From an uncultured Roseburia sp. (GTDB lineage: Bacteria; Bacillota; Clostridia; Lachnospirales; Lachnospiraceae), in the NCBI GenBank assembly GCA_947649645.1, contig CANSSP010000006.1, positions 1 through 64,000 of the forward strand: 64,000 nt of DNA, read 5' to 3'. Shown one piece after another: positions 217 through 12,991 of this stretch. Each line of letters starts with the position of its first letter. Position 1 is the first letter of the stretch. Position numbers and translations under genes: made by a program. The notes beneath the pieces were generated by a model. The model was not told where the DNA came from and did not search any database. It was given only the letters and a program-made list of their open reading frames with translations.

Positions 217-279
217 CATCAGAAGATAAGAAGATTATCTCCGGTTGTGGTAAGAGGTCTGCAAAGGAGGTATTTTTTT

Positions 280-864
280 ATGAAAAAATTCGTCGCTTTG
301 TTCACCGGTTCTTACAGAGAATTAAAGTCGGTGAGAACCGTCACTGTTTCCGCCATGCTGGCCGCCATTGCGGTCATTCTGGGCATGTTTTCCATTGAGA
401 TCGGCAATTACATCAGAATCGGCTTTTCGTCCATCCCCAATGGGGTGGAGGCGTATCTGTTCGGCCCTGTCGTCGGAGGTATTTTTGCGGGGGCGCTGGA
501 TATCCTTAAGTATGTCCTGAAGCCGACGGGGGCTTTTTTTCCGCCGCTCACGCTGGTTGTGATTCTGGCCGGGGTTCTGTACGGATGCATGTACTATAAA
601 AAGAAAATCACACTGGGGAGAGTCCTGGCTGCGAAATTTATTGTGATGCTCATCTGCAATGTGATTTTAAACACGCTGTGTCTCTCCGTCCTGTACGGCA
701 AAGGCTTTTTTCTGCTCCTTCCGGCGAGGGCGCTCAAAAATCTTGTTATGTGGCCGATTGATTCTGTGATCTTTTATACCACTGCAAAGTTTCTGGAGGG
801 CGCCGGCGTCTTTAAGATGATCGCTGCCCGCGCCTGCGGGGCCGGCGGCAGCGGGTGTGAATAG
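280..864 (+). CDS. folT: Folate-family ECF transporter S component
   Basis: A 194-residue membrane protein with about five or six hydrophobic segments, the usual size of ECF S components. The start ATG at 280 follows AAAGGAGG at 263-270; an in-frame upstream ATG at 190 lies inside the riboswitch and is rejected. The conserved early stretch VTVSAMLAAIAVILG and the motif GFSSIPNGVEAYLFGPVVGG fit the FolT-type subfamily. The protein should bind folate at the outer membrane face and work with a shared energizing module (EcfT plus two ATPases), which is not encoded here. The upstream THF riboswitch independently supports a folate substrate. The C-terminal tail is short and Gly/Ala-rich. Confidence 0.87.
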   Translation: MKKFVALFTGSYRELKSVRTVTVSAMLAAIAVILGMFSIEIGNYIRIGFSSIPNGVEAYLFGPVVGGIFAGALDILKYVLKPTGAFFPPLTLVVILAGVLYGCMYYKKKITLGRVLAAKFIVMLICNVILNTLCLSVLYGKGFFLLLPARALKNLVMWPIDSVIFYTTAKFLEGAGVFKMIAARACGAGGSGCE

Positions 865-2169: not shown

Positions 2170-4128
2170 ATGAAAAAGAAGCTGATTTCTCTTTTTCTGA
2201 TTGGCGCCATGTCAGCGGGTGTGCTGGCAGGATGCGGCAACGGGGGAGAGACGAATGAAGGCGGCAATTCCGGTTCGAATGCGGAAAACCAGGGCGATGT
2301 GTCCGGTAACGCAGAGGGGTCGGAAATGGAAATGGAAGTGGTAGTGGAGCCCGGTACAGAAACCGGAGGCGGGTCTGCTACATACAGCAATAAGCAGGTG
2401 ATTGTCGGCGAGATCTCTGAGACGAGCGGCGATATCACGCCGTACTGGACGAACAATGCGTCCGATTATGACGCATACAAGCTGGTTGCGAACGGTCTGG
2501 AGCCGATTGTAAACGACCAGGAGGGAAAGTGGATTGAGAATCCGACGGTTTTAGAGAAGCTGGAGACAGTCGACAATGAGGACGGAAGCAAGACCTATAC
2601 GGTCACGATCAAAGACGGCCTTAAGTTCAGCGACGGCAGCCCGGTTACGGCAAAAGAGTATGTGTTTGGAATCATGTTCTTTGCGAGCGATGAGCTGCAG
2701 GTGGATCTGAAGGCGACGGAGGCTTCGGCAGGTCTGTTCCAGTATTACAAGGGATACAGCGCTTATTCTTCCGGTGAGAGCGATACGTTTGAGGGTGTGC
2801 ATCTGATCGACGACAAGACGTTTTCCGTGACGATCGACGCTTCCATGGAGCCGTATTACTACGGACAGGCGCTTGTGGCTGTCGGACCGGAATCCATGGC
2901 TTTATGGGTGCCGGAGGACGTGACCCTGGAGGAGACGGAGAACGGTGTGAAATTCTCCGATAACTTTACGGCAGAGTATATCGGCGAGAAGGTTGAGAAG
3001 GCAAAATACGATTACAATATCAACTGCGGCGCTTATATGCTGACAGGTTATGACGCGGACGCTTATACGTATACGTTGACGAAGAACCCGAACTATCCGG
3101 GCAACTTTGAGGGACAGACGGCGAACATTGAGACGGTCCTGATCAAATACGTGCCGGAAGATACCATGATGGATCAGTTAAAGACCGGCGCAGTTGACCT
3201 TTTATATCAGGTAGGCGACGGCGACAAGATTGAGGCCGGCCTTGATATGGTGGAAGAGGGCGGTTACGATTATCTGACATACGGACGTGCCGGATACGGT
3301 ATGATCTCCTTTAAGTGTAATCAGGGACCGACCCAGTTTAAAGAAGTACGTCATGCAGTGGCATACCTGCTTGACCGCGTGGCGTTTGCGCAGACCTTTA
3401 CAGGCGGACACGGACTGGTTGTACACGGACCGTATGGCTCCCAGCAGTGGATGGTGCAGGAGTACGCAGAGGAAGTGGACGGCTTAAACGCTTACACTTA
3501 CAGCCTTGAATCGGCCGTAGCAGCGCTGGAAGAAGGCGGCTGGGTATACAATGAGGACGGTTCCGACTATTCGGGCGAAGGGATCCGCTACAAGAAATTA
3601 GACGACGGCACATATATGCCTCTTGTCATCGAGTGGCTTTCTTCCGAGAACAACTCGGTATCCGACCTGATTGTGACGTCTCTGATGCAGAATCCGGATG
3701 TGGCATCCGCCGGTATGCAGATCAACCAGACGGTTGTTACCTTTAACGAACTGTTGTCCTACTACTACGACAACTCTGAAGAGAACCCGTATCAGATGTT
3801 CAACCTTGCGACCGGTTTCGGCAACCCGTTCGATCTGGCATATATGTATGAGCCGGGTTCGGGTTCCAACATCAATGCGATTCCGGGAGAGGAAGGACAG
3901 AAGCTGTATGATCTGACCATTGCGATGAATCAGACGGCTGAGGGCGATGATGTGGCTTACGCAGAGAACTGGTTCAATTTCATTTCTTACTGGAATGAGC
4001 TTCTGCCGGAAGTTCCTCTGTACTCCAATGATTATCATGACTTCTTCACGTCAAGACTTCATGATTTTGAGGAGGACGGTTATAACTGGGATATCGTAAA
4101 AGCGATTCTGTACGCAAATATCGAGTAA
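2170..4128 (+). CDS. Peptide ABC transporter substrate-binding lipoprotein
   Basis: A 652-residue extracellular receptor of solute-binding family 5 (OppA/DppA type). The start ATG 2170 follows AAGGAGG; the longer reading from 2056 has no such site and would bury the signal peptide. A lipoprotein signal (MKKKLISLFLIGAMSAG) ends in lipobox LAGC, so the mature protein is anchored to the membrane. A Gly/Asn/Glu-rich linker of roughly 50 residues follows, then the family pattern: LVANGLEPIV, IKDGLKFSDGSPVTAKEYVF (typical of OppA) and a C-terminal PEVPLYSNDYH stretch. It is the first gene of the operon and should capture short peptides or similar solutes for the permeases at 4248 and 5248. The length is above the usual 520-600 residues, partly because of the linker. 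Confidence 0.92.
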   Translation: MKKKLISLFLIGAMSAGVLAGCGNGGETNEGGNSGSNAENQGDVSGNAEGSEMEMEVVVEPGTETGGGSATYSNKQVIVGEISETSGDITPYWTNNASDYDAYKLVANGLEPIVNDQEGKWIENPTVLEKLETVDNEDGSKTYTVTIKDGLKFSDGSPVTAKEYVFGIMFFASDELQVDLKATEASAGLFQYYKGYSAYSSGESDTFEGVHLIDDKTFSVTIDASMEPYYYGQALVAVGPESMALWVPEDVTLEETENGVKFSDNFTAEYIGEKVEKAKYDYNINCGAYMLTGYDADAYTYTLTKNPNYPGNFEGQTANIETVLIKYVPEDTMMDQLKTGAVDLLYQVGDGDKIEAGLDMVEEGGYDYLTYGRAGYGMISFKCNQGPTQFKEVRHAVAYLLDRVAFAQTFTGGHGLVVHGPYGSQQWMVQEYAEEVDGLNAYTYSLESAVAALEEGGWVYNEDGSDYSGEGIRYKKLDDGTYMPLVIEWLSSENNSVSDLIVTSLMQNPDVASAGMQINQTVVTFNELLSYYYDNSEENPYQMFNLATGFGNPFDLAYMYEPGSGSNINAIPGEEGQKLYDLTIAMNQTAEGDDVAYAENWFNFISYWNELLPEVPLYSNDYHDFFTSRLHDFEEDGYNWDIVKAILYANIE

Positions 4129-4247: not shown

Positions 4248-5234
4248 ATGTTAAAATACGTTGGGAAGAGGCTTGTGTATATGGTGGGCGTGTTTTTTGT
4301 TGTGTCCATCATTATGTTTATTTTATTTAATAATGTGCCTGGCGACCGCGCGTTAAATCAGGTACAGAGTTTAAGGGGAAAAGTTTCGGACGAAATTTTT
4401 CAGCGCCATTACGAGGAGGCACGGGAGAGACTGGGACTTGACGATCCGATTCCGATCCGCTATGTAAAGTGGATGGGAAATCTGTTGCAGGGCAATCTGG
4501 GCTATTCTACATTCTACAAAAAAGATGTCATTAAGGTTATCGGGCAGCCGATGGTCAATACAATCATTATCAATATTTTTGCGACGATTCTTGCGCTGGT
4601 GATTACGATTCCGCTGGGAATCCACTGTGCGGTAAAAAAATTCTCTAAATTTGACAATACGGTGCAGGTGCTGACGATTGTCGGCTACAGTGTGCCTAGC
4701 TATATAATCGGACTTGTTTTTATCTTTCTCTTTTCTGTTAAGCTGGGATGGTTTCCCATCAGCGGTATGAATTCCCCCAATTTTCAAGGGGCTGGTTTAG
4801 AGGCTGTGCTTGACCGGATGCATTATCTGGCTCTGCCGGTGATCGTTATGACCGTGGCTTCCCTGGGCGGTATGACGCGCTATGTCAGGGCGGCGATGAT
4901 TGACGCGCTGCGCATGGATTATATCCGTACGGCCAGGGCGAAGGGACTGAAGGAAAAAGTCGTTATTTATTCTCATGCGTGGAGAAACGCGCTGCTCTCG
5001 GTTATCACTCTGATTATTGGATGGTTTATGAGTATCTTTATGGGTTCTATTATCATCGAGCAGATTTTTCAGCTCAACGGAATCGGAAAGATGTATTACA
5101 CCGGACTGATGAACCAGGACTACGATATGGCGCTGGCAATCCAGATGCTTTACTGTGTGATCACACTGATCAGCAATCTGATCACGGATTTAAGTTATGG
5201 CATTGTCGACCCGAGAGTCCGTATCAACAAATAG
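4248..5234 (+). CDS. Peptide ABC transporter permease, OppB/DppB type
   Basis: A 328-residue inner membrane permease of the usual length and layout. The first membrane segment is near residues 10-30, followed by the outer loop with LGLDDPIPIRYVKWMGNLLQG and a five-segment BPD_transp core. The cytoplasmic EAA loop is visible as DYIRTARAKGLKEKVVIYSHAWRN and contacts the ATPases. The C-terminus LSYGIVDPRVRINK is typical of the family. The protein pairs with the permease starting at 5248, 13 bases downstream. It is an ordinary family member, in contrast to its partner. Confidence 0.93.
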   Translation: MLKYVGKRLVYMVGVFFVVSIIMFILFNNVPGDRALNQVQSLRGKVSDEIFQRHYEEARERLGLDDPIPIRYVKWMGNLLQGNLGYSTFYKKDVIKVIGQPMVNTIIINIFATILALVITIPLGIHCAVKKFSKFDNTVQVLTIVGYSVPSYIIGLVFIFLFSVKLGWFPISGMNSPNFQGAGLEAVLDRMHYLALPVIVMTVASLGGMTRYVRAAMIDALRMDYIRTARAKGLKEKVVIYSHAWRNALLSVITLIIGWFMSIFMGSIIIEQIFQLNGIGKMYYTGLMNQDYDMALAIQMLYCVITLISNLITDLSYGIVDPRVRINK

Positions 5235-5247
5235 GAGGAAGAAAACC

Positions 5248-7035
5248 ATGAGTATGCTAAAACGTCTTTTCGGGAAGAGGGACGCCGAGCTTGACATTAT
5301 GCAGGAAGAAGCGCTTCAGAGTCCGCTGCGCACGGTGATAAAGAACTTTCTGGAAAACAGACTGGCGACGGGGGGACTGATCGTATTCCTGCTTATTTTC
5401 CTCACCGTGCTGATCGGACCATTGTTTAATCCGATTGACCTGAGCGAGAAGGAGGAAACGCAGATTAACGTGGCGCCGGGAATGAAGATGCTTCAGGTTC
5501 CGGACGGACTGAAGGGAAACGTAAAGCAGATATCCACGGGGTCTACGTTCAGCGTCGGAGTTGACAACGACGGCAAGGTCTATGTGTGGGGACACACAAA
5601 GATTACCAGCAAGATTGATGTGGCAAAGCTGATTCCGTCAAAAGAGGAGCTGGGCAAAGTAGTGGCTGTCTCGGCGGGCTTTGATCATATTATGGCACTC
5701 AATGAGGATGGAAAGGTTATCTGCTGGGGAAGCGACCGTATGGGACAGGGAAAGGTCCCGATGGAAGTTTCCAAGAAAAAGGATATCGTTCAGATTGCCG
5801 CAGGGTATCAGATTTCCTACGCGCTGACAGGCAGCGGCGAGGTATTCTGCTGGGGAAATGAAAACTTAAACGATGTCCGGCTGACAAAGAGAAACGGAAA
5901 CAGCAATATTGCAAAGATTTCCGTGGCAAACACAACGCTGATGGCGCTGACAAAAGACGGCGAGGTAAGACATCTGGGCAGCCAGAAGTCGGAGATCGCG
6001 AACGTACCGGAAGACCTGGGGACGGTAAAGGATATCGCGACGACGGCCGATGCCTGTGTGGCGGTGCTTGAAGATAATTCCATGCGCATCTGGGGCAAGG
6101 CGAACAAGAGTGAGCGCGATCTTCCGGAAGTGGAGGGGAATATCGTATCGATCTTTGGCGGACGATATCACCTTACGGCGCTGAGCGACAGCGGAAAAGT
6201 TTATTCCTGGGGAAGCAACGCGAAGCATCAGACGGAGGTGCCTTCCAAAGCTTCCGGTGTGACCGCGATTTACGGCGGCGGATATCAGAATTATGCGGTG
6301 AAGGATTCCGGTGAGATTGTGACCTGGGGCTTAAAAGGATACCTGCTGGGGAGCGACGAGCTGGGGCGTGACGTTTTCTCGAGAATTTTAAACGGCGGCC
6401 GGATGACGATGACGATCGGTGCGATTGCCGTTATCATATCGACCATTATCGGTATTATCATCGGCGGCGTGTCGGGATTTTTTGGCGGATGGGTCGATAT
6501 CGTGCTGCAGCGGCTGACAGAGATCGTATCCTCCCTGCCGTTTCTTCCGATGGCCATGATTCTGACATCCATTATCGGGAATAATCTGCCGGAGGATGCA
6601 AAGATCGCGCTGATCATGATCGTCCTTGGTGTTTTAAGCTGGCCGAGCCTGGCGCGTCTCGTGCGTGCGCAGGTTCTTGCGGAGCGTGAGAAAGAGTTTG
6701 TCACGGCGGCGAACGCCATGGGCGTAAAGCGTTCCTCGATTGTGTTTAAACATATTATCCCGAATGTCATTTCGGTTATTATCGTGTCTGCGACGCTGGA
6801 TTTTGCTTCCTGCATGCTCACGGAGTCTACCCTTTCCTTCCTGGGATTTGGTGTAAAGCTTCCGCGTCCTACCTGGGGAAATATGTTAAACGGCTGCGTC
6901 AGCTCTGTTGTCATCCAGAATTACTGGTGGAGATGGGTGTTCCCGGCGATTATGCTGAGTATCTGTGTCATCTGCATCAATATGGTGGGCGACGGTCTGC
7001 GCGATGCAATCGATCCGAAGTCGAACGAGAGATAG
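5248..7035 (+). CDS. Peptide ABC permease (OppC type) with inserted RCC1-like seven-repeat propeller
   Basis: A 595-residue permease, about twice the usual 290-310. The start ATG 5248 follows AGGAGG. Residues 42-60 form the first membrane helix. Residues about 91-360 hold seven repeats of roughly 39 residues, each with a core like AxGxxHxxALxxDGxVxxWG (for example GKVYVWG, GKVICWG, GEVFCWG, GKVYSWG, GEIVTWG). This is the pattern of RCC1/BLIP-II-type beta-propellers, and seven repeats would close a seven-bladed propeller. From residue 366 the normal OppC sequence resumes at LLGSDELGRDVFSRILNGGR, with five membrane helices and the EAA loop EFVTAANAMGVKRSSIVFKH. By topology the propeller sits outside the membrane, between helix 1 and the pore domain. 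Reading frame is unbroken and there is no sign of assembly error. The role of the propeller (binding of substrate, receptor or wall) is unknown. Confidence 0.92.
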   Translation: MSMLKRLFGKRDAELDIMQEEALQSPLRTVIKNFLENRLATGGLIVFLLIFLTVLIGPLFNPIDLSEKEETQINVAPGMKMLQVPDGLKGNVKQISTGSTFSVGVDNDGKVYVWGHTKITSKIDVAKLIPSKEELGKVVAVSAGFDHIMALNEDGKVICWGSDRMGQGKVPMEVSKKKDIVQIAAGYQISYALTGSGEVFCWGNENLNDVRLTKRNGNSNIAKISVANTTLMALTKDGEVRHLGSQKSEIANVPEDLGTVKDIATTADACVAVLEDNSMRIWGKANKSERDLPEVEGNIVSIFGGRYHLTALSDSGKVYSWGSNAKHQTEVPSKASGVTAIYGGGYQNYAVKDSGEIVTWGLKGYLLGSDELGRDVFSRILNGGRMTMTIGAIAVIISTIIGIIIGGVSGFFGGWVDIVLQRLTEIVSSLPFLPMAMILTSIIGNNLPEDAKIALIMIVLGVLSWPSLARLVRAQVLAEREKEFVTAANAMGVKRSSIVFKHIIPNVISVIIVSATLDFASCMLTESTLSFLGFGVKLPRPTWGNMLNGCVSSVVIQNYWWRWVFPAIMLSICVICINMVGDGLRDAIDPKSNER

Positions 7036-7050
7036 GAGGAGGGGACGAAA

Positions 7051-8037
7051 GTGGCTTTATTAGAGATAAATGATCTGCATACCTTTTTTAAGACAAAGAA
7101 AGGTATCGTAAAGGCGGTAAACGGCGTTTCCTATTCCGTCGAACCGGGAAAGACGCTTGGCGTGGTCGGGGAGAGCGGCAGCGGTAAGAGCGTATCGGCC
7201 ATGAGTATTTTAAAACTGCTGGATGGCAACGGCTATATTGACAGTGGAGAGATTATTTTCGACGGAAGAAATCTGGCAGACGTTACCGTGAAAGAAATGT
7301 GCAAAATCCGTGGAAATGAGATTTCGGTCATCTTTCAGGAGCCGATGACGAGCTTAAATCCGATTTTTACGATAGAGCGTCAGCTCTCTGAGCCGTTCCG
7401 CATTCACCAGGGGATGAACAGGGCGCAGGCGGCGGAGAAGACGATTGAGATGTTAAAGGATGTAAGGATTCCCAATCCGGAGGCGGTGGCGAAGCAATAT
7501 CCGCATCAGCTCTCCGGCGGTATGCGCCAGCGTGTCATGATCGCGATGGCGCTTGCGTGCCAGCCGAAGCTTCTGATTGCGGACGAGCCGACGACAGCGC
7601 TCGATGTGACGATACAGGCGCAGATCTTAAAGCTGATGAATGACCTGAAGCGGGAAAAAGGGACGTCGATTCTGTTTATCACGCACGATCTGGGCGTGAT
7701 CAATGAGATGGCGGACGATGTCGCGGTGATGTATTGCGGTCAGGTGGTGGAGATGGCGACGGTGCGCACGATTTTCGGAGACAATCGTTATCTACACCCC
7801 TATACCGAGGGACTTTTGTACTCCATTCCGCGGCTTGACACGCCGGCGGGCGTGCGCCTCGATGCGATTCCGGGGGCTGTTCCGCACCCGCTCGACCTGC
7901 CCAGGGGCTGTAAGTTTGCTCCGCGCTGCAAGTATGCGACCGACCGGTGCCGTGAGAAGGAGCCGGCTCTCGCGGAGGTGGAGCCGGGCCACAGGGTGCG
8001 CTGCTTTTATCCGAAGAAAGGGGAAAGAAACGAATGA
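7051..8037 (+). CDS. Peptide ABC transporter ATPase, OppD/DppD type
   Basis: A 328-residue cytoplasmic ATPase with GTG start after AGGAGGAGG. Walker A GESGSGKS (about residues 39-46), Q loop [12 protein letters not shown], signature LSGGMRQR, Walker [13 protein letters not shown] and switch His (ITHDLG) are all intact. The C-terminal oligopeptide-transporter domain carries the cysteine pattern [14 protein letters not shown] plus a later Cys, as in family members that can bind an iron-sulfur cluster (established for some DppD proteins; inferred here). It overlaps the next ATPase gene by ATGA, so translation is coupled. Confidence 0.95.
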
Positions 8038-9533
8038 GTGACGAAAAGAAAATATTGCTGCGTGTCTCGAATCTGAGACAGTATTTCCCGATCGGAAAAA
8101 AGAAAATGGGAAAACCCCAGGCGTACGTAAAGGCAAACGACGGTATTACACTTGATATTTATGAGGGAGAGACATTCGGCCTTGTGGGCGAGAGCGGATG
8201 TGGGAAGTCTACATTTGGCCGGACGTTGCTGCAGCTTTACCATCAGACCGGCGGCCGGACGGTCTATTATGGCCGGACGGTTGAAGATTTTGATTTAAAA
8301 TATGTGGAAGATATTTTTAAGCATCTTTCTGAGAAGAAAAAACAGTGCGAGGAGCTTCGTTCAAAGGCAGAAAAGCTGCGGGAAGAGTATGAGCGGATGC
8401 CGGATGGCAGCAGTGAGGCGGAGCTGGCCAAAAAAGCGGCCGGCCAGCACCTTGGCGAGTGTTACAGCGAAGCGATGAATGCGCTTCTGGATATAACTGC
8501 ACTGATCGGAGGGATTTATACTTTATCGGGTGCGCAGCTCGACGAGGCCGGAAAGCATTATACGGACGAATATCTGGCGATGAAGGAGATCCGCCATATC
8601 CGGGCGCAGATCGCAGAGCTTAAGAAAAACGGAAAAGACGGCGGAAAGATCGCGGAGCTGGAAGGAAAGATCCCTGCGCTGGAAAAGAAGGTAGAGCAGG
8701 AGCTGGCGGAGATTTCCAAAATCCGCAAAGGCTGTGCGAATAACGAGGATTTTGCAAAATATGAGGCGCAGAAAGACAACGGTATCAATCTGGCAAATCT
8801 GACGGACGCAGAGATGCGTTTTCTGCGGCGCGATCTGCAGCTGATTTTCCAGGACCCTTATTCGTCGCTGAATCCGCGTATGACGGTCGGACAGATTATC
8901 GGAGAGGGACTGCAGGCGCATAAGATTTTTAAAAGAGGCGATTCCGGAATGCAGGACTATATTATGGAAGTCATGGAGAAATGCGGTCTTGCATCTTATT
9001 TTATCCACCGCTACCCGCACCAGTTTTCCGGCGGACAGCGGCAGCGTATCGGTATCGCGCGTTCTCTTGCGGTCAATCCGAAGTTTGTGGTCTGCGATGA
9101 GGCGGTTTCGGCGCTTGACGTGTCCATACAGTCACAGATAATCAATCTGCTGCTGGACTTAAAAGAGCAGAACAATCTGACATACCTTTTTATTTCCCAT
9201 GACCTGAGCGTAATCAAATACATCAGCGACCGTATCGGTGTGATGTACCTGGGGAATATGATGGAATTAAGCGAGACGGAAAAGCTGTTTGAACATCCGT
9301 ATCACCCGTACACGGAGGCGTTGCTTTCCGCAATACCGACCACGGATGTGGATGCGAAGAAGGAGTCCATCATTCTCGAGGGGGATATTCCCAGTCCGAT
9401 CAACCCGCCAAGAGGATGTAAATTTCACACCAGGTGCCGTTACTGCACAGAGGTCTGTGAAAATGTGACACCGGAGTTTGAAGAAGTGGAACCGGGGCAT
9501 TTTGTGGCCTGCCACCATAAGCTGGGGATCTGA
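8034..9533 (+). CDS. Peptide ABC transporter ATPase (OppF type) with large helical insertion
   Basis: A 499-residue ATPase, about 170 residues longer than typical OppF. Walker A GESGCGKST ends near residue 60. After about residue 90 the normal path is interrupted by a highly charged, Lys/Glu/Ala-rich helical stretch to about residue 262, with two coiled-coil-like blocks (near 95-125 and 190-235). The normal sequence then resumes as LRRDLQLIFQDPYSSLNPRM. Signature FSGGQRQRIGIARS, Walker B VVCDEAVSALD, switch region FISHDLS and the C-terminal cysteine block CKFHTRCRYCTEVC are present, so the enzyme should be active. The insertion lies between the nucleotide-binding P-loop and the Q loop and would project from the ATPase core. 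It is in the same operon as the propeller-bearing permease. Confidence 0.92.
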   Translation: MSDEKKILLRVSNLRQYFPIGKKKMGKPQAYVKANDGITLDIYEGETFGLVGESGCGKSTFGRTLLQLYHQTGGRTVYYGRTVEDFDLKYVEDIFKHLSEKKKQCEELRSKAEKLREEYERMPDGSSEAELAKKAAGQHLGECYSEAMNALLDITALIGGIYTLSGAQLDEAGKHYTDEYLAMKEIRHIRAQIAELKKNGKDGGKIAELEGKIPALEKKVEQELAEISKIRKGCANNEDFAKYEAQKDNGINLANLTDAEMRFLRRDLQLIFQDPYSSLNPRMTVGQIIGEGLQAHKIFKRGDSGMQDYIMEVMEKCGLASYFIHRYPHQFSGGQRQRIGIARSLAVNPKFVVCDEAVSALDVSIQSQIINLLLDLKEQNNLTYLFISHDLSVIKYISDRIGVMYLGNMMELSETEKLFEHPYHPYTEALLSAIPTTDVDAKKESIILEGDIPSPINPPRGCKFHTRCRYCTEVCENVTPEFEEVEPGHFVACHHKLGI

Positions 9534-9537
9534 CGCG

Positions 9538-9804
9538 ATGATTTTTCAGAGTAAAATTGACAGGGCGTTGAAAAAACTGCATGAGGAAAGTGATGCCGGG
9601 GCGGAGGAGCGCAAGACCGGGCATGCGCAGAGGCAGGGGGCAGAAGACGGGGGCGATGACATTTTAAGTGCGCCTGAGGCGCCTGTGCTTGAGAAGAATG
9701 ATTTTCTGGCGATGATGATCGCCGCGTTTGTCACGTTTGTCCCGGCGGCACTGCTTGTCCTGGGCGTTCTTGCGGCGGCGGCCTATTTTCTGTTTCTGCA
9801 TTAG
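9538..9804 (+). CDS. Small membrane protein, function unknown
   Basis: An 88-residue protein starting 4 bases after the OppF stop, preceded by a weak GGGG site. Residues 1-55 are charged and hydrophilic. Residues about 58-87 are strongly hydrophobic (LAMMIAAFVTFVPAALLVLG then AAAAYFLFL), enough for one long or two short membrane helices, with a short tail. Its position at the end of the peptide transporter operon suggests co-expression, but no family is recognised. Confidence 0.6.
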   Translation: MIFQSKIDRALKKLHEESDAGAEERKTGHAQRQGAEDGGDDILSAPEAPVLEKNDFLAMMIAAFVTFVPAALLVLGVLAAAAYFLFLH

Positions 9805-10273: not shown

Positions 10274-12991
10274 ATGAGTACAGAACAGAATAATACGGGT
10301 GAACTTGCGAAAACCTATGATCCGAAAGGCATTGAGAGCCGTCTTTACCAGAAATGGGAGGAAAACGGTTATTTCCGCGCCAGGGCGGACCGCAGCAGAA
10401 AGCCGTTTACCATCGTGATGCCTCCGCCAAATATCACAGGGAAGCTTCATATGGGACATGCCCTGGATAACACGATGCAGGATATTCTGACCAGGTATAA
10501 GAGGATGCAGGGGTATAACACGCTCTGGCAGCCGGGGACAGATCACGCTTCGATTGCGACCGAGGTAAAGGTAATTGAGAGTCTGAAAGAGCAGGGGATC
10601 GATAAGCAGGAGCTTGGCCGCGAGGGATTCCTGGAAAAATGCTGGGAGTGGAAAGACGAGTACGGAAACCGGATTGTGGAACAGTTAAAGAAGATGGGCT
10701 CTTCGGCAGACTGGGAGCGGGAACGTTTTACGATGGATGCGGGATGCTCCGATGCGGTTCTCGATGTTTTTGTGAAACTGTATGAAAAAGGTCTGATTTA
10801 TAAAGGCTCCCGTATTGTCAACTGGTGTCCGGTCTGCAGGACGTCAATTTCCGACGCCGAGGTAAATCATGAGGAGCAGGACGGCTTTTTCTGGCATATC
10901 AATTACCCGGTTGTGGGCGAGGAGGGACGGTTTGTCGAGATTGCGACCACGAGGCCGGAGACGTTGTTCGGGGATACCGCGGTGGCGGTGAATCCGGAGG
11001 ATGAGAGATATCGCGACATCATCGGGAAGCTGCTTAAACTGCCGCTTACGGACAGGGAAATCCCGGTTATAGCTGATTCCTATGTAGATAAAGAATTTGG
11101 AACCGGCTGCGTGAAAATTACGCCGGCACATGACCCGAATGATTTTGAGGTGGGAAGACGCCATGGGCTTGCGGAGATCACTGTCATAGAGGACGATGCG
11201 ACGATGAACAGCCATGCCGGAAAATATGCGGGAATGGACCGGTATGCGTGCAGAAAGGCACTGCTGTCGGATCTGGAAGAGATGGGGCTTCTCGTAAAGA
11301 CGGAGCCGCACGCTCACAATGTGGGGATACATGACAGATGCGGTACGACGGTGGAGCCGCTGGTAAAACAACAGTGGTTTGTAAAGATGGACGAACTGAT
11401 AAAACCTGCGGTGGAAGCGGTCAAAAACGGTGAGGTCCGTCTGCTTCCGAAACGGATGGAAAAGACATATTATAACTGGACGGATAATATCCGTGACTGG
11501 TGCATATCGAGGCAGCTCTGGTGGGGGCACAGGATTCCGGCGTACTATTGTGCGGATTGCGGCGAGATGGTTGTGGCGAAGGAGGCGCCTTTAGCGTGTC
11601 CGAAATGCGGGTGCAGGACGATGCAGCAGGATGAGGACACGCTGGATACCTGGTTTTCTTCGGCGCTCTGGCCGTTTTCCACGCTGGGCTGGCCTGAGAA
11701 AACAGAAGATCTGGATTATTTTTATCCGACGGACGTGCTTGTCACCGGATATGACATTATCTTTTTCTGGGTAATACGCATGATTTTTTCCGGTTATGCG
11801 TATACCGGGAAAGCGCCGTTTCATACGGTACTGTTTCACGGGCTGATCCGCGATTCACAGGGGCGTAAAATGAGCAAATCGCTTGGAAACGGGATAGATC
11901 CGCTGGAAGTCATTGACAAATACGGGGCGGATGCCCTTCGTCTGACGCTGATTACCGGAAACGCGCCGGGAAATGATATGCGCTTTTACTGGGAGAGAGT
12001 CGAGGCGTCCAGAAATTTTGCAAATAAGGTGTGGAATGCGTCCAGATTTATTCTTATGAATCTGGCGGGGAGCGAAGCGGCCGGTGCGACAGGGGAGGGA
12101 GAGACCTGTTGCGGAACAACGGACGCCCTGCCGGAAGGGCTGCGCCCCGCGGACAAATGGATTCTTTCAAAAGTCAACACGCTTGCGAAAGATGTGACCG
12201 AGAATATGGATAAATTCGAGATGGGAATCGCGGTTCAGAAAGTATACGACTTTATCTGGGATGAGTTCTGCGACTGGTATATTGAGATCACGAAAGTCCG
12301 CACATATGCAAAAGAGCAGGATCCGGTGTCCGCATCTGCGGCGTTCTGGACATTAAAGACGGTGCTCACGGAGGCGCTGAAGCTTCTGCATCCGTTTATG
12401 CCGTTTATCACAGAAGAAATTTTCTGTACGCTGCACCCGGAAAAAGAGACGATTATGCTGGGAGACTGGCCGGTATATCGGGAAGCGTGGAATTTTCAGG
12501 AAGAAGAGGAAATGCTGGAACACTGCAAGGATCTGGTAAAGGCGGTGCGGAACGTGCGTACGCAGATGGATGTGCCCCCGTCGAGAAAGGCAAAGCTGTT
12601 TATCGTTTCCGAAGACGGAAAGCTGCGGGAGGCGTTTGAGACGAACAGGGAGGCATATTGTCATCTGGCGTCGGCGGGCGAGGTGTCGATACAGGCGGAT
12701 AAAGACGGTATCGGGGAAGACGCGGTATCGGTTGTGATTCCCGGGGCGGCGCTGTATCTTCCCCTGGAAGATCTGGTCGATCTCAAAAAGGAAAAAGAAC
12801 GTCTTGAAAAGGAGAAAGAACGTCTTGAAAAAGAGCTTGCGCGCTCCCGCGGTATGCTCTCCAATCAAAAGTTTCTGAGCAAGGCGCCGGAGGCGAAAGT
12901 ACAGGCGGAAAAGGAGAAACTTGCCGGTTATGAACAGATGATGGCGCAGGTTGAGGAACGCCTTGCGCAGATGGGACAGAAAAAAGCCTGA
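10274..12991 (+). CDS. valS: Valyl-tRNA synthetase
   Basis: A 905-residue class I synthetase that charges tRNA-Val in the cytoplasm. The HIGH-type motif is PPPNITGKLHMGHAL (near residue 55) and the KMSKS motif is KMSKSLGN (near 535). The editing domain lies between them (ATTRPETLFGDTAVAVNPED). A four-cysteine element CADC...CPKC fits the zinc site of bacterial ValRS. The C-terminus forms the usual coiled-coil arm, with a short internal duplication of KERLEKE. Start ATG follows AAAAGGAG. Expression is controlled by the T-box leader. A spacer of about 137 nt between leader terminator and start holds nothing I recognise apart from short GAAAGTGT repeats. Confidence 0.97.
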   Translation: MSTEQNNTGELAKTYDPKGIESRLYQKWEENGYFRARADRSRKPFTIVMPPPNITGKLHMGHALDNTMQDILTRYKRMQGYNTLWQPGTDHASIATEVKVIESLKEQGIDKQELGREGFLEKCWEWKDEYGNRIVEQLKKMGSSADWERERFTMDAGCSDAVLDVFVKLYEKGLIYKGSRIVNWCPVCRTSISDAEVNHEEQDGFFWHINYPVVGEEGRFVEIATTRPETLFGDTAVAVNPEDERYRDIIGKLLKLPLTDREIPVIADSYVDKEFGTGCVKITPAHDPNDFEVGRRHGLAEITVIEDDATMNSHAGKYAGMDRYACRKALLSDLEEMGLLVKTEPHAHNVGIHDRCGTTVEPLVKQQWFVKMDELIKPAVEAVKNGEVRLLPKRMEKTYYNWTDNIRDWCISRQLWWGHRIPAYYCADCGEMVVAKEAPLACPKCGCRTMQQDEDTLDTWFSSALWPFSTLGWPEKTEDLDYFYPTDVLVTGYDIIFFWVIRMIFSGYAYTGKAPFHTVLFHGLIRDSQGRKMSKSLGNGIDPLEVIDKYGADALRLTLITGNAPGNDMRFYWERVEASRNFANKVWNASRFILMNLAGSEAAGATGEGETCCGTTDALPEGLRPADKWILSKVNTLAKDVTENMDKFEMGIAVQKVYDFIWDEFCDWYIEITKVRTYAKEQDPVSASAAFWTLKTVLTEALKLLHPFMPFITEEIFCTLHPEKETIMLGDWPVYREAWNFQEEEEMLEHCKDLVKAVRNVRTQMDVPPSRKAKLFIVSEDGKLREAFETNREAYCHLASAGEVSIQADKDGIGEDAVSVVIPGAALYLPLEDLVDLKKEKERLEKEKERLEKELARSRGMLSNQKFLSKAPEAKVQAEKEKLAGYEQMMAQVEERLAQMGQKKA

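Follow-up and report, generated by a model that had tools for sequence, protein, structure and literature searches.

A predicted seven-bladed propeller in the outer loop of OppC from clostridial oligopeptide-type importers

Opp importers are among the best-studied ABC systems. Those closest to the locus analysed here are OppABCDF and DppABCDF, with solved structures from E. coli (8z21, 8z1v-8z1z) and M. tuberculosis (8j5q-t, 8wd9-b). The OppC/DppC chains in these structures are 287-302 residues long and therefore have no room for a propeller, whereas the OppC described here has 595 residues; the OppF/DppF chains of E. coli, at 322-328 residues, compare with 499 here. Solved OppC and DppC have short outer loops, whereas the clade described here carries a full propeller, mostly together with a helical insert on the partner ATPase: a textbook importer predicted to be elaborated on both sides, recurring in many related bacteria.

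BceB-type permeases, which belong to a different ABC class, have a large extracellular domain involved in outer sensing. MalFGK2, of another importer subfamily than Opp, offers a likeness to the OppC propeller in MalF P2, a large folded outer permease region with an Ig-like fold in a later loop of MalF; we claim no homology between the two. MalF P2 comprises residues 91-271 of MalF and contacts MalE (accessible portion of PMC3150292). Within the Opp/Dpp group, the accessible text of PMC12136057 describes DppA as capping the permeases from outside, with a DppB loop entering the DppA cleft. This scoop acts on the substrate-binding protein (SBP) and, like the propeller, is an outer segment after the first transmembrane helix (TM1), but it has only about 30 residues and lies in the other permease subunit, OppB, which is of normal length here. 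BLIP-II (1jtd_B, 3qhy, 3qi0), a secreted binder according to the accessible part of PMC9218822, has the same fold type as the propeller, which is here inserted in a membrane permease. That paper, on propeller families, names RCC1/BLIP-II, and no mention of a transporter or permease was found in its accessible text; nor was a mention of RCC1 found in the accessible text of PMC9682168, which mentions Opp clusters in a peptide-using isolate. Among the papers listed in our literature search, which left preprints and most subscription papers outside its scope, none was seen to describe a propeller-bearing OppC, and the architecture may already be published elsewhere.

The operon and its propeller-bearing permease

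The window, by which we mean the whole stretch of 64,000 nucleotides analysed, contains the following features:

2170..4128, + strand: SBP_bac_5 lipoprotein, the cognate receptor (Pfam SBP_bac_5, 1.8e-39)
4248..5234, + strand: OppB permease, 328 aa, without a large insert (BPD_transp_1, 5.3e-37)
5233..5238, + strand: probable ribosome-binding site AGGAGG for the ATG at 5248, read from the sequence
5248..7035, + strand: OppC permease with inserted propeller, 595 aa (ORF, Pfam, AF2)
5359..5427, + strand: TM1 of OppC, residues 38-60 (AF2 helix 38-60; OppC_N 25-77)
5521..6330, + strand: predicted seven-bladed RCC1/BLIP-II-type propeller, residues 92-361
6337..7023, + strand: conserved GYLLGSDELGRD junction and permease core, residues 364-592
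7051..8037, + strand: OppD ATPase, 328 aa, without insertion (ABC_tran, 1.7e-30; oligo_HPY)
8034..9533, + strand: OppF ATPase with internal insertion, 499 aa (ABC_tran in two pieces; oligo_HPY)
8298..8765, + strand: OppF insert, four long predicted helices, residues about 89-244 (AF2; between Walker A and Q-loop)

The SBP_bac_5 lipoprotein, OppB, OppD and OppF (oligo_HPY) of an Opp/Dpp-type operon are thus all present, and OppC combines OppC_N (25-77) with a BPD_transp_1 core (402-591, 1.6e-32) bearing the G[ST]DxxGRD motif of such importers. About 53 residues of polar linker come after the lipobox cysteine of the SBP. An ECF transporter S component lies upstream of the operon (window 232-864); after OppF come a 108-aa ORF without a Pfam match (9478-9804) and a large ORF (10274-12991) that resembles valyl-tRNA synthetase as judged by eye.

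The reading frame, coordinates and start codon originally predicted for OppC all hold. In Pfam, the repeats match RCC1_2 (E 9.9e-38, over five separate stretches) and RCC1 (4.5e-12), and OppC scores just below the cut-off of 150 bits for WD40_RLD (149.6 bits, E 1.9e-43). In a phmmer search against solved structures, residues 364-592 match OppC 8z21_B (3.4e-55) and the repeats match BLIP-II 1jtd_B (5.8e-26). The AF2 model places seven three-stranded blades after the TM1 helix (38-60), at residues 92-115, 138-161, 180-203, 221-242, 260-283, 299-322 and 338-361; the LLGSDELGRD motif comes next, and a long helix (TM2) starts at 376. The last propeller residue lies three positions ahead of the conserved GYLLGSDELGRD segment, from which the chain continues into TM2. 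With seven blades and the RCC1 repeat signature, this structure prediction bears out the BLIP-II-type propeller that had been proposed from the repeats. Its insertion site is the loop between TM1 and TM2, which by homology to OppC would be outside, on the SBP-facing side as in DppABCDF. Two details of the original prediction need adjustment: the repeats are present, but their spacing varies between blades from 39 to 46 residues rather than being about 39, and of the seven blades, 4 and 5 lack the full A-G-H-AL..DG.V..WG pattern.

The blade number is nearly constant. A profile HMM for the blade, built from these proteins, gives 7 matches in the window OppC and exactly 7 in 91 of 94 distinct propeller-type permease sequences, the exceptions being L146 (876 aa) with 11, L044 with 6 and the truncated L148 with 4; among entries without a propeller, three give one match each. 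In the alignment all seven blades, including those of L044, are at least 80% filled in 61 of 61 deduplicated rows (L148 excluded), in agreement with the complete set of seven originally proposed. The long loop of the L146 protein (L146:5184-7811) perhaps holds two propellers or one enlarged domain.

The best NCBIfam models for the operon are Opp4C, Opp4B (2.7e-85 for OppB) and Opp4A, all scoring under their cut-offs. OppC scores 313.8 bits against the Opp4C equivalog, below the curated cut-off of 350, and is best regarded as a relative of Opp4C and a non-member under the cut-off rule. Together with the five-subunit set, these models point to oligopeptides as the probable substrate. Oligoendopeptidase F family members are expected to be cytoplasmic. 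An M3-family oligopeptidase F-like gene was found near six distinct loci (seven rows, in which L010 and L197 represent a single contig), with 51-100% identity to the L003 copy (L003:11405-13207, downstream of the operon; also L006, L007, L010, L153 and L194); at three others a remote relative (24-27% identity) lies nearby. No such gene was noticed next to the operon of the window. As a hint of peptide import this neighbour is only suggestive. Among the largest neighbour families, none beyond the five subunits occurs in more than 23 of 135 loci (the 23-locus cluster being partly resolved). Seven loci, among them L146:10680-12482, encode a protein of some 600 aa that has a hydrophobic N-terminal stretch and matches S41 peptidases weakly, below the cut-off; in most cases it lies about 2.8 kb beyond OppC.

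Distribution and ancestry of the fusion

The fusion is patchily distributed, even inside the genus. It is present in at least 11 of 299 genomes of the family (best candidates per genome scored), in 24 of 392 genomes of the order (26 match at E <= 1e-72, two of them, G382 and G325, in the permease part only), in 14 of 398 genomes of the phylum at the same threshold and in 8 of 30 genomes of the genus; these samples overlap, with G000 present in each. In the phylum-wide sample it appears under five family labels beyond the window's own family. A scan of contigs confirmed 116 stretches, of which 80 were kept and 46 of the 80 carry the fusion (L003-L047, L055); these counts cannot be added to those of genomes, because some stretches share assemblies with them. 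The window genome (91% complete) encodes the propeller OppC and one distant OppC elsewhere (29% identity over 364-591), and all four of its RCC1_2 matches (E <= 0.001) fall within the OppC gene. We rejected a chance fusion or assembly chimera, since the same fusion occurs in MAGs and in named isolates: Acetivibrio ethanolgignens (L011), Soehngenia longivitae (L017), Clostridium sp. Cult3 (L022) and Merdimmobilis hominis (L034).

We built a quick IQ-TREE phylogeny of the permease part (101 rows after removal of near-copies, SH-aLRT support only, midpoint root). A branch with support 99 sets apart the 62 propeller rows, including the truncated L148, for which the simplest reading is a single gain of the propeller in a clostridial OppC clade. 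Rows from the window's family are scattered over several places of this clade, which hints at transfer among lineages. Among the closest propeller-free relatives, L143 has a complete operon with an OppC 53% identical over 365-594, and the module is therefore not needed for this importer type as such; L144 has no SBP match on the stretch read.

Further RCC1-like sequences were seen in some of these genomes. G394 encodes a free RCC1-repeat lipoprotein downstream of its propeller operon (L172:11937-13448, 504 aa, 5 blade matches), which may be related to the source of the propeller. It also has another propeller OppC, accompanied by an SBP and OppB (L162, G394:C5), with no OppD or OppF on the adjoining stretch read. 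In G1052:C71, of the same genus, frames of 509-639 aa give RCC1-like matches to the propeller part only.

Insertions in OppF and in other OppC loops

The original prediction described the outer propeller and overlooked a second insertion in the same operons, in OppF. In the AF2 model of this ATPase (pTM 0.85) the insert forms helices at 98-120, 127-163, 166-198 and 203-233, and the distance from Walker A to the Q-loop is 212 residues in the window; in OppD it is 47-51 in the propeller operons where it was scored. The insert is found in most propeller operons, with a conserved base and a variable middle. Two examples gave no Pfam match over cut-off, and a structure search with the whole OppF model returned a list filled by ABC ATPases, which therefore carries no information on the fold of the insert.

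Among the 392 order genomes, 22 have both inserts, 2 the propeller only (one of them at a contig end), 1 the OppF insert only and 367 neither. On the tree the propeller changes state once and the OppF insert twice, the second change being a nested loss, and both inserts change state on the same branch; their co-occurrence rests on one joint origin. The nested lineage (L169, L194 and L196, under two genus labels, one of them the window's) keeps the propeller OppC alongside a normal OppF (46 residues from Walker A to Q-loop). L210 (G387:C21, locus 5600-7979) is an OppD-OppF pair with the OppF insert; the little sequence left up to the end of the contig showed neither OppB nor OppC, and the search of that genome gave no propeller OppC.

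Also overlooked in the original prediction was a further type of OppC encoded in many genomes of the family (L051, L093, L095-L109, L111, L154-L159, L161). These proteins have about 510-715 aa, and their large insert occupies the same outer loop as the propeller but differs from it. In four of them the insert gave no Pfam match above the cut-off. OppF is normal (42-43 residues from Walker A to Q-loop) in 7 of 7 scored operons of this type (L154-L159, L161), and in the tree most OppC with the different insert group together, apart from the propeller clade. The loop between TM1 and TM2 is thus a recurrent site for outer modules, where large domains were acquired on more than one occasion. Yet another large loop region is particular to L050.

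Possible roles of the propeller

We tentatively favour, at somewhat short of even chances, a role of the propeller as a docking and gating platform for the SBP, comparable to that of the unrelated MalF P2 for MalE. In this five-subunit SBP-OppB-OppC-OppD-OppF importer, the propeller added to the outer loop of OppC would capture the lipoprotein receptor above the translocation path, acting alongside the OppB scoop; receptor binding would be coupled to TM2 movement; and the OppF insert may, on the cytoplasmic side, regulate or stabilise the ATPase that pairs with OppC. If it docks the receptor, the propeller would have arrived independently, through another fold, at the solution seen in MalF P2, and one may ask what these peptide importers require it for.

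Evidence on the partner comes from partial correlations of pairwise distances among seven parts in 43 operons (300 permutations); the rest of the 61 deduplicated rows lack a complete SBP, OppB, OppD or insert-bearing OppF. Propeller and SBP correlate at 0.42 (0/300 permutations as high; 0.29-0.53 in other settings, 0.27-0.53 as the 5-95% range on subsampling), the highest value for either partner. Known contacts were recovered (SBP-OppB 0.29, 0/300; permease-OppB 0.72), and values were low in the main analysis for propeller-OppB (0.08, 31/300) and propeller-OppD (0.07, 45/300), the latter rising to 0.27 in the close half. However, the propeller and the OppF core, for which no contact is expected across the membrane, reach 0.39 (0/300) and exceed propeller-SBP in some settings (0.42 vs 0.38 with ranks, 0.34 vs 0.30 in the close half, 0.43 vs 0.33 without cluster 1 and 0.30 vs 0.29 without cluster 3), so the test may only reflect shared rates. 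Covariation thus gives weak to moderate support to the SBP as partner. Among the three roles originally proposed (receptor docking, binding of substrate or wall fragments, and ligand sensing), docking is the best supported, by indirect evidence and with the OppF core as an awkward control.

Mean identity to the window is 38% for the propeller vs 64% for the permease, and at 10 of the 16 junction columns (360-375) a single residue is shared by 75% of rows or more, a pattern suggestive of a variable binding head on a fixed joint. The idea of a conserved face was unsupported: mean conservation is similar between A-B turns (0.475) and B-C turns (0.489), with inter-blade loops at 0.362, and singles out no propeller face. 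Nor did we find support for a long SBP tether reaching a docking site raised by the propeller. Measured roughly, by motif, the tethers of 60 distinct SBPs are between 6 and 84 residues long, and such variable lengths give no support for a fixed docking height; only one of the 60 comes from a propeller-free operon (34 residues, L160), which is therefore no real control.

The propeller may have a different binding partner outside the cell, either a protein (a secreted protease or a peptidase) or a polymer such as the cell wall, in the way that BLIP-II binds its target enzyme, and the importer may thereby be held beside a peptide source; the fold is a known protein-binding scaffold, and the variable inter-blade loops and fast evolution of the propeller would fit. 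We regard both the binding and the tethering as unlikely, since no conserved outer peptidase was recognised among the largest neighbour families, and the oligoendopeptidase F-like gene occurs near few loci and would act inside the cell. The low conservation outside the blade motifs and the tolerance of the loop for a different insert in other OppC would also suit a structural spacer or stabiliser without a specific ligand, kept after a chance fusion. The retention of seven blades in every deduplicated copy and the spread over five further family labels make this reading improbable.

The propeller could instead be the outer half of a two-sided sensor, responding to an outer ligand (SBP state, free peptide or a wall fragment), a role we consider doubtful; with equally little confidence, the OppF insert might be its cytoplasmic output or regulator-binding site, through which the importer gates or reports transport. 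The shared branch on which both inserts change, their mostly joint retention and the contact of DppC with DppF (accessible text of PMC12136057) speak for such an arrangement. Yet the co-occurrence traces to the single joint origin, the nested lineage keeps the propeller with a normal OppF, the second propeller OppC of G394 has no OppD or OppF alongside on the stretch read, and no regulator was recognised among the largest neighbour gene families in 135 loci. Propeller and OppF insert show no specific rate covariation in the 43 operons (0.06, 38/300), although this does not reject a coupling because the insert is near saturation (mean distance 2.08). If the propeller senses, a transporter-receptor in common anaerobes becomes testable. 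Rather unlikely, too, is that the outer propeller and the inner four-helix insert, both acquired jointly in the OppC-OppF half of the transporter, form a transmembrane relay in which peptide capture gates the ATPase or signals to the cytoplasm; if true, this would be a transporter-receptor hybrid built from an ordinary Opp system. Whether either insert depends on the other could be read from the lineage of L169, L194 and L196, which serves as a natural experiment.
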